Virus record (IMG/VR): IMGVR_UViG_3300031772_000310
Span: 1 to 22,457 of that record
Length of the DNA stretch: 22,457 bases
DNA from: a virus
Reading direction: 5' to 3' (one strand)
Positions within the stretch are counted from its first letter, which is position 1. Each line of letters begins with the position of its first letter. A program made the translations under genes and the position numbers. A model generated the notes under the pieces. That model did no database searches and was not told the DNA's origin. It saw nothing but the letters and a program-made list of their open reading frames with translations. Of this stretch, positions 2,548 to 12,116 are shown in pieces.

Positions 2548-2716
2548 GCGGAGGCAATGGTACTTCAGGTTCAGTCAATTGTTTTGACCCCCGCGGGACA
2601 AAGTGATCCACATATTTTTCCCAACTGTGTTCACCCGTGTGAAGCGCTGGGAGGTTGCAGTGCACCTGTAGGCCTCCTGGAACGGGTGCCGTGAAAAGCA
2701 TACCACAGTCGCTCAT
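2510..2716 (-). CDS. Small Cys/His protein, hypothetical
   Basis: A 68-residue frame starting MSDCGMLFTAPVP at ATG 2716, overlapping the upstream stop as ATGA. Residues 18-31 read VHCNLPALHTGEHS, a C-x-L-P-x-x-H-x-G-x-H-S-W arrangement resembling short putative zinc-binding motifs in small phage proteins. Together with C4 it offers two Cys and three His. The last 15 or so residues overlap the start of the next gene by 38 bases and are proline- and asparagine-rich, with no obvious fold. No function is recognised. Support comes from the ATGA coupling, the patterned Cys/His residues and the lack of another gene in this interval. Confidence 0.55.
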   Translation of the reverse strand: MSDCGMLFTAPVPGGLQVHCNLPALHTGEHSWEKYVDHFVPRGSKQLTEPEVPLPPHGNGNRVLRVPV

Positions 2717-2976
2717 GTCTGTTGAAGAAAGCTCCAGAGTTTATCTTCCACCAGGGCATACATTTCCTCGTCGAGGTCTGCCAGTGACTCGTTGGCCAGC
2801 TGCAGCAGCTCGCGGGAGTGTGTGGGATTCTCGGCCCGCGTGGCAATGAAGCGCTTGATGTGCTGCCGCAGGCGCTCTGTACAGTCATCGGTCGCTTGAC
2901 GGAGCATGAATTCGGGCACGCCACGCATGAACTCTTCGCGGATGATCTTGCGTATCTGGTCTTCAGGATCTTTCAT
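2713..2976 (-). CDS. Small helical protein with shared N-terminal 'IIREE' motif
   Basis: An 87-residue, all-helical protein beginning MKDPEDQIRKIIREEFMRG. The segment IRKIIREEF aligns with LRRLIREGI, LHRIIVTEV and VNDIIQAEV at the N-termini of the next three genes upstream (2973-3323, 3320-3667, 3670-4089). The middle is rich in Arg, Glu and Gln, and the C-terminus is an acidic amphipathic helix (LADLDEEMYALVEDKLWSFL). There is one Cys, and no signal peptide or membrane segment. Its ATG overlaps the upstream stop as ATGA. I do not recognise an enzymatic function. The shared N-terminal helix suggests a common docking partner or a targeting tag (inference). Confidence 0.75.
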   Translation of the reverse strand: MKDPEDQIRKIIREEFMRGVPEFMLRQATDDCTERLRQHIKRFIATRAENPTHSRELLQLANESLADLDEEMYALVEDKLWSFLQQT

Positions 2977-3323
2977 TCCCTGTAGTACTGTCCATCGATC
3001 AACTTCATGATCATTTCTTCAGCAGCTTCTTCAAGCAGCGGTTCCACCTGCGTCATGAAATCTGTTGCAGCTTCTCGGCACTGTTGCTGCCAGGCCTGAG
3101 GTCCGACATGGTTCATTGAAGGATCACCTTCATCGTACATGTTGCTCAAGACTTCTTCGACCATCCCGTCGCCGGTCGCTGCCATGTTTGACGCAATGTA
3201 TGAGGCTTGCCCGTGTTGGTCTTGCGCCCGTGAGGCTTCAGTGATCCTCTGTGTGGTCTTCTTGACCTCAGTGACGATGATCCTGTGCAGTGCTTCTTTG
3301 CTGAGTTTGATGGGTTTCTTCAT
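2973..3323 (-). CDS. Small helical protein with shared N-terminal motif
   Basis: A 116-residue protein from ATG 3323, which forms an ATGA overlap with the upstream stop; an in-frame start ten codons earlier lies inside the upstream gene and is less likely. It begins MKKPIKLSKEALHRIIVTEV, carrying the same kind of basic lead-in and Leu/Ile-rich helix as its neighbours. The central part (ASYIASNMAATGDGMVEEVL) is Ala/Met-rich. The C-terminal helix (VEPLLEEAAEEMIMKLIDGQ) is acidic and amphipathic, similar in character to the ends of the adjacent small proteins. No catalytic motif or membrane segment is visible. The four neighbours may be diverged duplicates or may share only the N-terminal module. 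Confidence 0.75.
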   Translation of the reverse strand: MKKPIKLSKEALHRIIVTEVKKTTQRITEASRAQDQHGQASYIASNMAATGDGMVEEVLSNMYDEGDPSMNHVGPQAWQQQCREAATDFMTQVEPLLEEAAEEMIMKLIDGQYYRE

Positions 3324-3667
3324 GACGGGTTTTCCTTGTTGGCTGCAAGCCATCCCTGTTGCAAAGTATTACTGATCTGTGACATCACCTTTTCTGTGAT
3401 GCGATCAGCCTGAGACTTCAGAGCCTCGTAGGTTGCATCGTCAAAGTCCCGCGACTCAGCGTTGTACTTGTCCTTGTGGGCCAGAACCAGATTATTCATC
3501 AATGCTGAACTGTAGAACCGTTCCAGGTCTCCCATGGCCTTGCTGACGTTCTGACGCTGCATGGGATCCTTGACGGGCTTCTCATTGAAGGCTGCCGGTG
3601 ACAGGCTGATCTCTGAGATGATGCCCTCGCGGATCAACCTTCGCAGTGTTCCGACCTTAATTTTCAT
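3320..3667 (-). CDS. Small helical protein with shared N-terminal motif
   Basis: A 115-residue protein starting MKIKVGTLRRLIREGIISE at ATG 3667, two bases after the upstream TGA; an in-frame TTG two codons earlier overlaps that stop and is unlikely. LRRLIREGI is the clearest copy of the N-terminal helix shared by this group of genes. The rest is predicted helical: QRQNVSKAMGDLERFYSSAL and, near the C-terminus, ADRITEKVMSQISNTLQQG. There is no Cys and no recognised domain. It is followed by an ATGA overlap with the next gene, so these small genes form a tightly coupled string just downstream of the ribonucleotide reductase. Function is unknown. Confidence 0.75.
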   Translation of the reverse strand: MKIKVGTLRRLIREGIISEISLSPAAFNEKPVKDPMQRQNVSKAMGDLERFYSSALMNNLVLAHKDKYNAESRDFDDATYEALKSQADRITEKVMSQISNTLQQGWLAANKENPS

Positions 3668-3669
3668 TG

Positions 3670-4089
3670 TCAATACCCTGTCTCATCAGGTTCATTGCCA
3701 CCAGCAGTTCGAACAGCGGCGCCACCTAGTTTCCGCGCAAAATTGTGAAGAGCGGTAGTAATCTCCATGGCTAGCTCCTCCTCGAGGTCGGCGAGTTCAG
3801 GCTCTACAAGGAACACATCATCTTCTAGTTCGTTGGCCCTAACCTTGCGGTGACTCATTGCGTGTTGATTCATCTGGTCAATGATCTGTTTCATCACTTT
3901 GCGACGAAAGGAATTAACAACCTCAGACGCCGATGTCACTGCGGTGTCATACATCTTCTCTTCGATGACCTGGTTCATGATTGACATGTCAACGTTCATC
4001 GGTTCAGCTCGGCGCTCGGCTAGCACCGATTGTACTTCTGCTTGGATGATATCGTTAACTCGAGCGGCCTGTCTAGGTGTCAATTTCAT
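3670..4089 (-). CDS. Small helical protein with divergent N-terminal motif
   Basis: A 139-residue protein beginning MKLTPRQAARVNDIIQAEV at ATG 4089, with AGGA about ten bases upstream as a ribosome-binding site. VNDIIQAEV occupies the position of the IIREE-type helix in the three genes that follow, though it is less basic. Later segments are helical (EEKMYDTAVTSASEVVNSF, RRKVMKQIIDQMNQHA), and a strongly acidic helix (ELADLEEELAMEITTALHNF) precedes a Gly/Ala-rich tail. It is the first gene after nrdJ, with a 27-base gap. No known domain, signal peptide or transmembrane helix is seen. It could be a virion-associated or assembly protein, but this is not shown by the sequence. Confidence 0.72.
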   Translation of the reverse strand: MKLTPRQAARVNDIIQAEVQSVLAERRAEPMNVDMSIMNQVIEEKMYDTAVTSASEVVNSFRRKVMKQIIDQMNQHAMSHRKVRANELEDDVFLVEPELADLEEELAMEITTALHNFARKLGGAAVRTAGGNEPDETGY

Positions 4090-4116: not shown

Positions 4117-6663
4117 TCAGCCGCACTTTGAGTTGCCACAATCAAGACATGCGACGCAGCCTTGTTGGTAGCACAGGTTGGTGCTGTTGCAGCTCGGGCA
4201 CGTTTTTTCCTGTGTGGCCTTGGTCCCGTCTGGGATGTAGCCCTTGCTGAGAACGCGGGCAATGACACTGGAGAACGACATGACGTCGCTGTGCTTGTCC
4301 TTACGGAGCTGCTCGACCAAGTATTGGACCGGCACCCCGTGACGCAAGGCCAATGAGACCGTCCGTGTGAAAGCTCCATACAACGGGTTGTCGAACAGCA
4401 ACACCATGTCTTTAAATAGGACGCAGTCATCGTCACCCACCGGGATCCGCAGGTTATAAGTGGCCACGCCATCCTTCTTGCCGTTCTTGATGAGGACACC
4501 CTTCTTGGCTTTTTTGGGCACCTCCACGTGTTCTGACAATCCAGCAAAGACTTCGTAGGGGACGCCGCCCAACAGGCCGACGCAGACCAGATATTGTTCA
4601 CCTTTGACATTGACACGGTGCACATCACAGTCTAGTTCCTTGGGCCGCTTCGGAGCATGGGTTTCAGTGATGATCAAAGGTAGACCGGTAGCGTCTTTCT
4701 CCTTGACAATGACGGCATCGCGGGAGCCGATGCGGTACATGGTGACGCCCTTGCACCCTGTCTCCCAAGCGTGCCAGCACATCTTTTCCACCAGGTCGAC
4801 GCTCACATCGTTGGGCAGGTTAGTTGTGTTACTGATGCTGTGACAGATCCATTTCTGGGCCGCGGCCTGGATGTCGACCTTCCTGATCGGATCGATCTCT
4901 TCGACTGTCGATCCATGGTACGGTGACTTTGTTATGTCTGTCTCACCGGTGATCGCCATCCACTTGGCAACACCGTGATGGTAAACGTCATAGTGTTGCC
5001 ATTTGTCACCCTTGTTGTCTGTCTCGTCAACGCGGGCCATTTTGTCGCTGGGATTGATCTTGCGCTTCCTGCGAGCCTTGACGAACAGCACGGGTTCACA
5101 GCCTGACGTGGTCTGCGTTTCGAGCGAAGTCGATCCTGCAGGCGCCGTGGTGGTGTTGGCAATGTTCCGGCGCCCGTAGAGCTTGTACTCGGCATTGAGC
5201 TCATGGTCAGCGTCCATGATTTGACAGATGAACGGGTGATCTTTTTCAACGCTGTGATCGTAGGTCGGAAATGGTCCTCGCTCCTTGGCCATGGCGACGC
5301 TGGACCTGTACGAATTCAACGCTAGTTCCTTGTAGATTGTGGAAGTCAACTTGATGCTATCGTCTGACCCATAGGCTATGCCCATGTAAGCAAATGTGTC
5401 GCCGAGCGATGTGATGCCCAGACCGGTGCGCCGGCCATTGACGGCGGCATTGCGGATCTTTTTCCACATCTCGAGCTCAACGCGCTTGACATCAGGCGGT
5501 TCCGGGTCGGCTTCCGTCTTGGCGAGGATCTTGTCGACGGCCTCGAACTCGAGGTCGACCAGGTCATCCATCATCCGTTGCGAGCGTTGCGTCACCCGAG
5601 CAAACGACTCAAAGTCAAACTGTGCCTTTACAGTGAACGGATCGGTGACAAACTTACAGAGGTTAATCAGCAACAACCTGCAACTATCGTACGCAGAGAG
5701 GACAATCTCGCCGCAAGGATTCGTCGAGATGGTACCGTACCCAAACTTCTCGTATGCATCAGCAGGAGAGCGTTCTTTGATGGCGTCCCAGAACAGCATC
5801 CCGGGCTCTGAACAATCTCGCATTGCAGAGACGATGTTGTTCCACACCTCGCGGGCATCGACCTGCTGCTCAATCGTGTGAACGGCATCTTTTTCAACAG
5901 GAAAACGTTGCTGGTACTTGGCGCCGGCCTTGACAGCCTCCATGAATTCATTGGTTATCCTGATTGAAACGTTGGCACCGGTGACGAGGTCAGGGTTGCG
6001 CTTGATGTTGGCGAACGTCAACACTTCAGGGTGATGCACCGACAGCGTCAACATCAAAGCCCCGCGGCGTCCGCCTTGGGCCACTTCACGGCAGGTGTTG
6101 CTGTAGCGTTCCATGAAGACGCCGATGCCATCGGTGGTCCTAGCTGCGTTGGCAGCCGGCTGTCCCTTGGGCCTGATTGTCGACATGTCGAAGCCCACTC
6201 CGCCGCGGCGCTTCATGATCTGGACCTCTTCCTGGTCGGTCTTCATGATGCCCCCGTACGAATCGTAAGGCGACTCTACGACAAAACAATTTGACAACGA
6301 CTGGATCTGAAAGTTGTTGCCGATCGCTGACATCGGCCCGCCTTGCGGCACCACCCGCCAGTCAGCCAGCATCTCGTAGATGTCGTCTTCAGCCAGAGCA
6401 TTGGGATATTTAGCCTCAATGCGAGCGAACTCACGGGCCAGGCGGCGGTGCATGTCAGCTGGTGTTGATTCATAAATGTTGCCCTGAAGATCCTGCAGGG
6501 CATATTTTCCGGCAAAAACGTCAGCTGCCAGTTCATCACCTTTGAAATACTCAACAGACGCGTCACGGACCTGTTGATACGTGAATTTCTTCATTCCATA
6601 GCTCTCCACGGGGTAAGACGATGTTTCGCCGGCCAAGCGAATTTTATGCTCCGAAGCAGTCAT
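4117..6663 (-). CDS. nrdJ: Adenosylcobalamin-dependent (class II) ribonucleotide reductase
   Basis: This 848-residue enzyme reduces ribonucleotides to deoxyribonucleotides using a B12-generated thiyl radical, so it needs neither oxygen nor a separate beta subunit. The first redox Cys is C126 (SLSNCFVV). The radical site is NPCGE with C317 and E319, and the partner Cys is C328 (YDSCRLLLINL, slightly diverged from the usual SCNLGSINL). The block TTTAPAGSTSLETQTTSG is at about 504-521, and the zinc-ribbon/redox tail ends GCVACLDCGNSKCG, as in class II enzymes. Length is complete and there is no intein. The start used is ATG 6663, 14 bases after the helicase stop. ATG 6594 (MKKFTYQQVRDAS), with a GGAG upstream, is a good alternative and matches where I expect phage NrdJ proteins to begin. 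No nrdA/B or nrdD gene is in the window. Confidence 0.95.
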   Translation of the reverse strand: MTASEHKIRLAGETSSYPVESYGMKKFTYQQVRDASVEYFKGDELAADVFAGKYALQDLQGNIYESTPADMHRRLAREFARIEAKYPNALAEDDIYEMLADWRVVPQGGPMSAIGNNFQIQSLSNCFVVESPYDSYGGIMKTDQEEVQIMKRRGGVGFDMSTIRPKGQPAANAARTTDGIGVFMERYSNTCREVAQGGRRGALMLTLSVHHPEVLTFANIKRNPDLVTGANVSIRITNEFMEAVKAGAKYQQRFPVEKDAVHTIEQQVDAREVWNNIVSAMRDCSEPGMLFWDAIKERSPADAYEKFGYGTISTNPCGEIVLSAYDSCRLLLINLCKFVTDPFTVKAQFDFESFARVTQRSQRMMDDLVDLEFEAVDKILAKTEADPEPPDVKRVELEMWKKIRNAAVNGRRTGLGITSLGDTFAYMGIAYGSDDSIKLTSTIYKELALNSYRSSVAMAKERGPFPTYDHSVEKDHPFICQIMDADHELNAEYKLYGRRNIANTTTAPAGSTSLETQTTSGCEPVLFVKARRKRKINPSDKMARVDETDNKGDKWQHYDVYHHGVAKWMAITGETDITKSPYHGSTVEEIDPIRKVDIQAAAQKWICHSISNTTNLPNDVSVDLVEKMCWHAWETGCKGVTMYRIGSRDAVIVKEKDATGLPLIITETHAPKRPKELDCDVHRVNVKGEQYLVCVGLLGGVPYEVFAGLSEHVEVPKKAKKGVLIKNGKKDGVATYNLRIPVGDDDCVLFKDMVLLFDNPLYGAFTRTVSLALRHGVPVQYLVEQLRKDKHSDVMSFSSVIARVLSKGYIPDGTKATQEKTCPSCNSTNLCYQQGCVACLDCGNSKCG

Positions 6664-11879: not shown

Positions 11880-12116
11880 TCACTTCTTCTTGCGCTTTGC
11901 AGCGTTCTTTTTGCGTCCCATGGCACCGGGGTCTGCGCCCAGCGGTGCTGTGTAGCCCGCGATCGCTCCGACACCTGAGAACTCATTGACGTCTTCGACT
12001 TCATCCTTCTTTTCCTTTTCCGAATCCGGGGCGTCCAAGAGCTGGTTGGGAACGCGGGCGTCCTTGACCGACTCCAAAACTGTCTTTATGTACCGCACAA
12101 GCAAGTTATTGCTCAT
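11880..12116 (-). CDS. Small protein with basic tail and GYTAPLG motif, unknown function
   Basis: A 78-residue protein from ATG 12116, beginning MSNNLLVRYIKTVLESV. A longer frame from GTG 12170 would overlap the HD-domain gene and add 18 residues. The N-terminal helix LVRYIKTVL resembles the shared helix of the small proteins at 2713-4089. A charged linker (SEKEKKDEVEDVNEF) leads to the Gly-rich motif EFSGVGAIAGYTAPLG. The tail, GRKKNAAKRKKK, is strongly basic and could bind nucleic acid. I have an impression that similar '(G)AIAGYT.PLG' endings recur in small proteins of large phages, but I cannot verify this here. No ribosome-binding site is obvious before ATG 12116. Confidence 0.65.
   Translation of the reverse strand: MSNNLLVRYIKTVLESVKDARVPNQLLDAPDSEKEKKDEVEDVNEFSGVGAIAGYTAPLGADPGAMGRKKNAAKRKKK

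Follow-up and report, generated by a model that had tools for sequence, protein, structure and literature searches.

Small internal proteins of bacteriophage T4 carry N-terminal propeptides of 10-19 residues that direct them to the core and are subsequently cleaved off, and the T4 protease gp21 cleaves after L/I-x-E (PMC9026906). Residues 4 and 7 of IPIII are important for its targeting, residues 8 and 10 for its processing (PMC9026906). Read from the T4 DNA, these leaders are MKTYQEFIAE^A, in two genes, and MKTFKEFIKE^D. The latter begins a 54-aa ORF (L518:871, minus strand) and represents a third leader of the targeting type. In phiKZ and SPN3US, many head proteins likewise have N-terminal propeptides that are removed by the prohead protease; the SPN3US protease cleaves after A-x-E, and most propeptides are long (111-254 residues), two being of 20-24 residues (PMC10052503). 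A portable tag common to several proteins of phiKZ or SPN3US was not found in the literature.

The locus analysed here is encoded in IMGVR_UViG_3300031772_000310, a viral fragment of 22.4 kb (22,457 nt), the whole of which is called the window below. Four small genes, located directly downstream of nrdJ on the minus strand, begin with variants of a common N-terminal tag of 14-22 residues with the consensus MKITxxQLRxII[KR]E(E..xxLLxE). The observation is larger than first seen: the same tag is present on well over 100 otherwise unrelated proteins in related giant phages. The four products are probably cargos sharing a portable N-terminal head-targeting propeptide, which would load them into the head and be cleaved off by gp21.

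The tag resembles the T4 capsid targeting sequence (CTS) of IPI, IPII and IPIII in three respects. Indeed (i) it is short, N-terminal and shared by small proteins that are otherwise unrelated, (ii) it consists of MK, a short basic or polar stretch and then [FI]I[AKR]E, and (iii) its hydrophobic-x-Glu ending corresponds to the gp21 motif, in phages with gp21, gp22 and gp23. However, it differs from the CTS by a distinct sequence, by 4 additional residues (one helical turn) before the first Glu, by a basic P2 residue and by a second site that is often present at residue 22, and its carriers number up to 43 per genome, compared with three CTS-like leaders found in T4. No homology of the tag to MKTYQEFIAE was detectable with the tag profile against T4 (E <= 0.1); the similarity is too short to show homology, and only the plan is common. 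The tag is therefore likened to the T4 CTS and not classed within it, since homology is unproven and packaging is a prediction. Compared with SPN3US, the tag ends in I-I-[KR]-E and not in A-x-E, and it is absent from the phiKZ and SPN3US genomes.

The features of the locus, based on ORF calls and orthologs and, for gene 4, also on a structure model, are as follows.

4117..6663, minus strand: nrdJ (ribonucleotide reductase; gene name taken from the first-pass annotation), which anchors the locus in relatives
3670..4089, minus strand: gene 1, 139 aa, MKLTPRQAARVNDIIQAEV
4015..4089, minus strand: gene 1 tag, MKLTPRQAARVNDIIQAEVQSVLAE, with candidate cleavage site VLAE^R at residue 25
3320..3667, minus strand: gene 2, 115 aa, MKIKVGTLRRLIREGI
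3611..3667, minus strand: gene 2 tag, MKIKVGTLRRLIREGIISE, with candidate cleavage sites LIRE^G (residue 14) and IISE^I (residue 19)
2973..3323, minus strand: gene 3, 116 aa, MKKPIKLSKEALHRIIVTEV
3267..3323, minus strand: gene 3 tag, MKKPIKLSKEALHRIIVTE, with candidate cleavage site IVTE^V at residue 19
2713..2976, minus strand: gene 4, 87 aa, MKDPEDQIRKIIREEF
2935..2976, minus strand: gene 4 tag, MKDPEDQIRKIIRE, with candidate cleavage site IIRE^E at residue 14

The first-pass annotation had described the genes as tightly coupled right after nrdJ, which agrees with the ORF calls: nrdJ is the upstream neighbour of gene 1, genes 2/3 and genes 3/4 overlap by 4 bases each, and genes 1/2 are separated by 2 bases. 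All four tags contain at least one hydrophobic-hydrophobic-x-Glu unit within 25 residues. With a scoring profile trained on other phages only, the N-termini of genes 2, 4, 3 and 1 reached 18.8, 12.5, 6.0 and 3.5 bits, respectively, scores equalled among 6569 internal 35-mers of the relatives by 1, 1, 4 and 19 of them, in the same order. None of the other window proteins tested with this profile scored above 0. From these scores and this background, genes 2 and 4 are unambiguous, whereas genes 3 and 1 are weak alone. The orthologs of gene 1 carry the canonical form of the tag (MRLTKRQAEAVNEIIQEEVQ, MKLTPRMAKEINSIVQEEVQ) and match gene 1 over the first 26-27 residues, after which the bodies diverge; the window copy has an Ala in place of the orthologs' first Glu. 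In the relative L082, the tag of the gene 3 ortholog reads VKLNKLQLRSLLREAI. The tag assignment of genes 1 and 3, weak on its own, thus rests partly on orthologs. The earlier description of four small neighbouring genes with a common N-terminal motif is therefore confirmed, clearly for genes 2 and 4 and via orthologs for genes 1 and 3; the motif is real, but the pattern first given for it was too loose and is better written MKITxxQLRxII[KR]E.

Searches of Pfam and PHROGs with genes 1-4 gave no convincing family. The structure model of gene 4 comprises a separate N-terminal helix (residues 4-14, with a low confidence of about 60) and a better supported helical core (residues 22-86), without any fold match in the PDB; the model of gene 2 is of poor quality. 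An acidic C-terminal helix had also been attributed to all four products: the net charge of the last 40 residues agrees with this for genes 1, 3 and 4 (-5, -6 and -7, respectively) but hardly for gene 2 (-2). Elsewhere in the window, a 78-aa protein (11880-12116, minus strand; MSNNLLVRYIKTVLES...NEFSGVGAIAGYTAPLGADPG...KKK) adjoins the DNA polymerase gene and is kept in dozens of relatives; its N-terminal helix is tag-like, but without a tag match.

Four adjacent genes, helical and of similar size, could also be paralogues that retained their N-terminus as their bodies diverged, and tandem arrays of tagged genes do exist. Pairwise BLAST showed that the bodies are unrelated, as had been noticed at first sight, save for a weak 19-residue C-terminal match between genes 1 and 4 (ELADLEEE... 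/ SLADLDEE..., E about 0.06-0.1). This match would fit a duplicated family, an origin also proposed in the first-pass annotation, which is left unsupported because the bodies are unrelated. Since whole-protein homology is absent, unrelated enzyme folds occur among the cargos elsewhere and non-homologous cargo replaces genes at the nrdJ locus, duplication is considered improbable.

The relatives of this locus were found via nrdJ and a 1041-aa protein. A search with gene 2 as query returned zero relatives. Downstream of nrdJ, their tagged genes are retained, fused or exchanged. In brief, the gene 1 tag is fused in L082 to a gene 3-like protein that has its own tag; in L085 (13801-14211), the tag of the gene 4 ortholog is separated from its body by an inserted CxxC...CxxC knuckle; and different tagged cargos, one of them rich in Cys motifs, occupy this place in L084, L087 and L091. 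Gene 4 shows the widest conservation among the four, and gene 2 orthologs are present in at least three relatives. The window copy of gene 2 and one ortholog differ from two others (L086, L088) by five residues, which form a second hydrophobic-hydrophobic-x-Glu unit absent from L086 and L088 (LIRE/GIISE/ISLSP vs ILRE/VAVSP, the gap placement being our reading). Tagged cargos behind nrdJ in L083, L084, L085 and L086 share a PPMHPR-like sequence at or near the C-terminus, which is a possible second shared element. GYxTP, considered for the same role, occurred only once in the gene calls of the relatives and was dropped.

Beyond this locus, the motif is concentrated at N-termini, with a density per 1000 residues of 0.53 in the first 10 residues vs 0.02 beyond residue 300 (1322 distinct ORFs of the first loci; ratio about 25x). 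In seven relatives with 2867 called proteins, the tag profile picked out about 50 that carry the tag at the N-terminus; most of the strongest internal matches were due to starts called too early. Genome searches gave 12-20 tags per genome for six relatives and 2 for G014, which is more distant; LR756508.1 (484 kb) has 20, and the cultured Flavobacterium phage immuto has 2, at about 81.5 and 113.1 kb of MW353176.1. Other large tag-bearing contigs contain 6-43 tags each, and one 17-kb piece contains about 28 tagged genes, nearly end to end. The motif is thus enriched at other N-termini, and the initial reading survives this check. The same search detected no tag in T4 (at E <= 0.1), KVP40, P-SSM2, S-SKS1, C48C1, OC, RM378 and phage G, nor in phiKZ and SPN3US as given above, and 34 random viral contigs yielded zero convincing tags. 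With tblastn, the bare tag peptide gave a single weak match among cultured phages, in LR756508, and a tagged protein from a head cluster gave zero matches. Neither the tag strings nor such a tag were found in the literature searched, which excluded subscription journals and preprints. In L315 (240-677) and L184 (G018:102739-103371), a second complete tag is present inside the chain.

A chance likeness of short helical N-termini would agree with the low scores of genes 1 and 3 taken alone, and is hardly credible in view of the DNA. A strict 42-base degenerate pattern for MKITxxQLR[RK]II[KR]E occurs in at least 120 stretches of IMG/VR, where almost none are expected according to our rough estimate from base composition, and the controls are empty; for the tag as a whole, this count and these controls exclude chance. 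In GTDB genomes, the same pattern occurs in 8 stretches on a handful of contigs.

The strict pattern retrieved 219 tagged ORFs with 179 distinct cargos among the matches listed, which have only the tag in common. The cargo folds include an AAA_33/polynucleotide kinase and a tRNA-ligase-type 2H phosphodiesterase (2H phosphoesterase), and a YkuD L,D-transpeptidase and EF-hand proteins are also tagged. This variety, together with the exchange of cargos at the nrdJ locus, strongly supports the proposal of the first-pass annotation that a tag is carried by unrelated cargo. Within the 17-kb array, the tag codons have a pS of 0.74 and a pN of 0.14 (pN/pS 0.19), compared with 0.73 and 0.72 for the cargo codons, and the DNA upstream of the tagged genes is 26% identical, which is the chance level. 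As the pS of the tag equals that of the unrelated cargo whereas its pN is far lower, it is the peptide that is under selection, and recent DNA copying is excluded. A start region conserved across genes could in principle reflect an element at the DNA or RNA level, such as a translation enhancer, a regulatory site or the end of a recombination cassette within the 5' coding region, but these same values, with unrelated DNA upstream, refute such an element unless it is confined to codon positions 1 and 2, and it is regarded as very improbable. A portable N-terminal peptide kept by selection is the best-supported part of the analysis and is independent of any role in the head.

The end of the tag resembles a predicted cleavage site. 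In tag-bearing genomes, the propeptide junction of the major capsid protein, placed by alignment with T4 gp23 (cut FLTE^A), reads [VIL]L[RK]E^[ASQVTE], and tag positions 11-14 (I-I-[KR]-E) follow the same pattern, although the remainder of the capsid propeptide is unlike the tag. The background of hydrophobic-hydrophobic-[KR]-E is 0.0007 per residue. Among the matches listed, Lys or Arg stands at P2 in 167 of the 179 tags, and a second site lies exactly at residue 22 in 47 of them and at residues 16-32 in 74 (shuffles: mean 14.4, maximum 27). In the 17-kb array, conservation of the tag stops at this second site, residue 22. The hydrophobic-hydrophobic-x-Glu pattern could partly reflect helix periodicity.

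Furthermore, gp21 (S77 prohead protease) and gp23 are both encoded in 16 of 16 tag-bearing viral contigs larger than 100 kb, some of which are close relatives, so that the lineages are not all independent. They are also present in most large relatives, and this co-occurrence is read in these contigs and relatives, the window itself being a 22-kb fragment. In comparison, gp23 is present in 1 of the 34 random viral contigs, which are mostly smaller (two larger than 100 kb), the base rate of gp23 being therefore not size-matched. In GTDB, two MAGs with several tags contain gp21 and gp23, at the level of the MAG. Tagged proteins also occur in the head clusters: almost all clusters that could be parsed (a few of 22 pieces could not) have them between terminase and portal, right behind gp21 or close to gp23. 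In particular, the protein following gp21, of about 140 aa, begins with MAKxSRxxLKxLVKECLVEILSEG in nearly every parsed cluster and has two glutamates 8 residues apart, as in the tag. A scan for T4 late promoters revealed no enrichment over expectation in tag-bearing genomes; on T4 itself, the scan gave 8 vs 1.6 expected. The virion or scaffold role suggested in the first-pass annotation is consequently supported in an indirect manner, by the co-occurrence with gp21 and gp23, the synteny with head genes and the cleavage-site pattern.

The N-termini of the tagged genes are mostly basic and helical, and many of these genes lie outside the head clusters, for example the window genes beside nrdJ. 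Both facts would also suit a helix that docks on a target other than the head, such as the inner membrane or a host or phage partner (polymerase, clamp, tail or baseplate), with neither cleavage nor packaging. Such docking is unlikely, as it would account neither for the invariant Glu14 and the Glu22 of the second site, nor for the agreement with the capsid junction and the co-occurrence with gp21 and gp23. For the head-targeting propeptide, we infer the following steps from the tag, its portability and N-terminal placement, the selection on it, the co-occurrence, the synteny and the agreement with the predicted capsid cleavage site. As a basic amphipathic helix of 14-22 residues, the tag would dock the new protein on the prohead core (scaffold) during head assembly; at head maturation, gp21 (S77) would cleave after the hydrophobic-hydrophobic-x-Glu that ends the tag, and often at the second site 8 residues further, so that the cargo would be freed within the head; the freed cargo would then be packaged with the DNA and probably injected, like the T4 internal proteins. 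A broader reading, for which the chances seem close to even, is that a large lineage of giant environmental phages related to T4 uses one universal, protease-removable N-terminal address to load into the head, and inject at infection, a rapidly changing set of 10-40 different proteins per virus, some of them encoded in arrays that reach about 30 tagged genes.

If true, one short peptide would predict, among the hundreds of anonymous proteins encoded by these abundant giant phages, those that are borne in the virion and act first in the cell. Hypothetical genes could then be ranked as candidates for injected effectors, among them nucleic-acid repair, cell-wall and possibly counter-defence enzymes. 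The gp21/gp23 machinery would then carry a cargo system far exceeding that of T4, a general delivery system as opposed to a handful of internal proteins, and the peptide could possibly serve as a tag for loading proteins into phage heads.

Other shared N-terminal leaders, e.g. (F[DN]L[KR][KS]FL.ENKLT...LKE) and RMQKLAGIITE, are found on several Flavobacterium phage immuto proteins encoded close to the head genes (L377 and L236), and possibly constitute a second tag family with the same ending pattern. Two nearly identical gp23 genes are encoded in tandem in L500 and L502 (G026 and G028, respectively). Finally, partial matches to the gp23 profile are present in small frames located away from the capsid gene (G001:C1:16752-17807; G005:C1:185435; G006:C1:120934 and 317511; G014:C1:235394).
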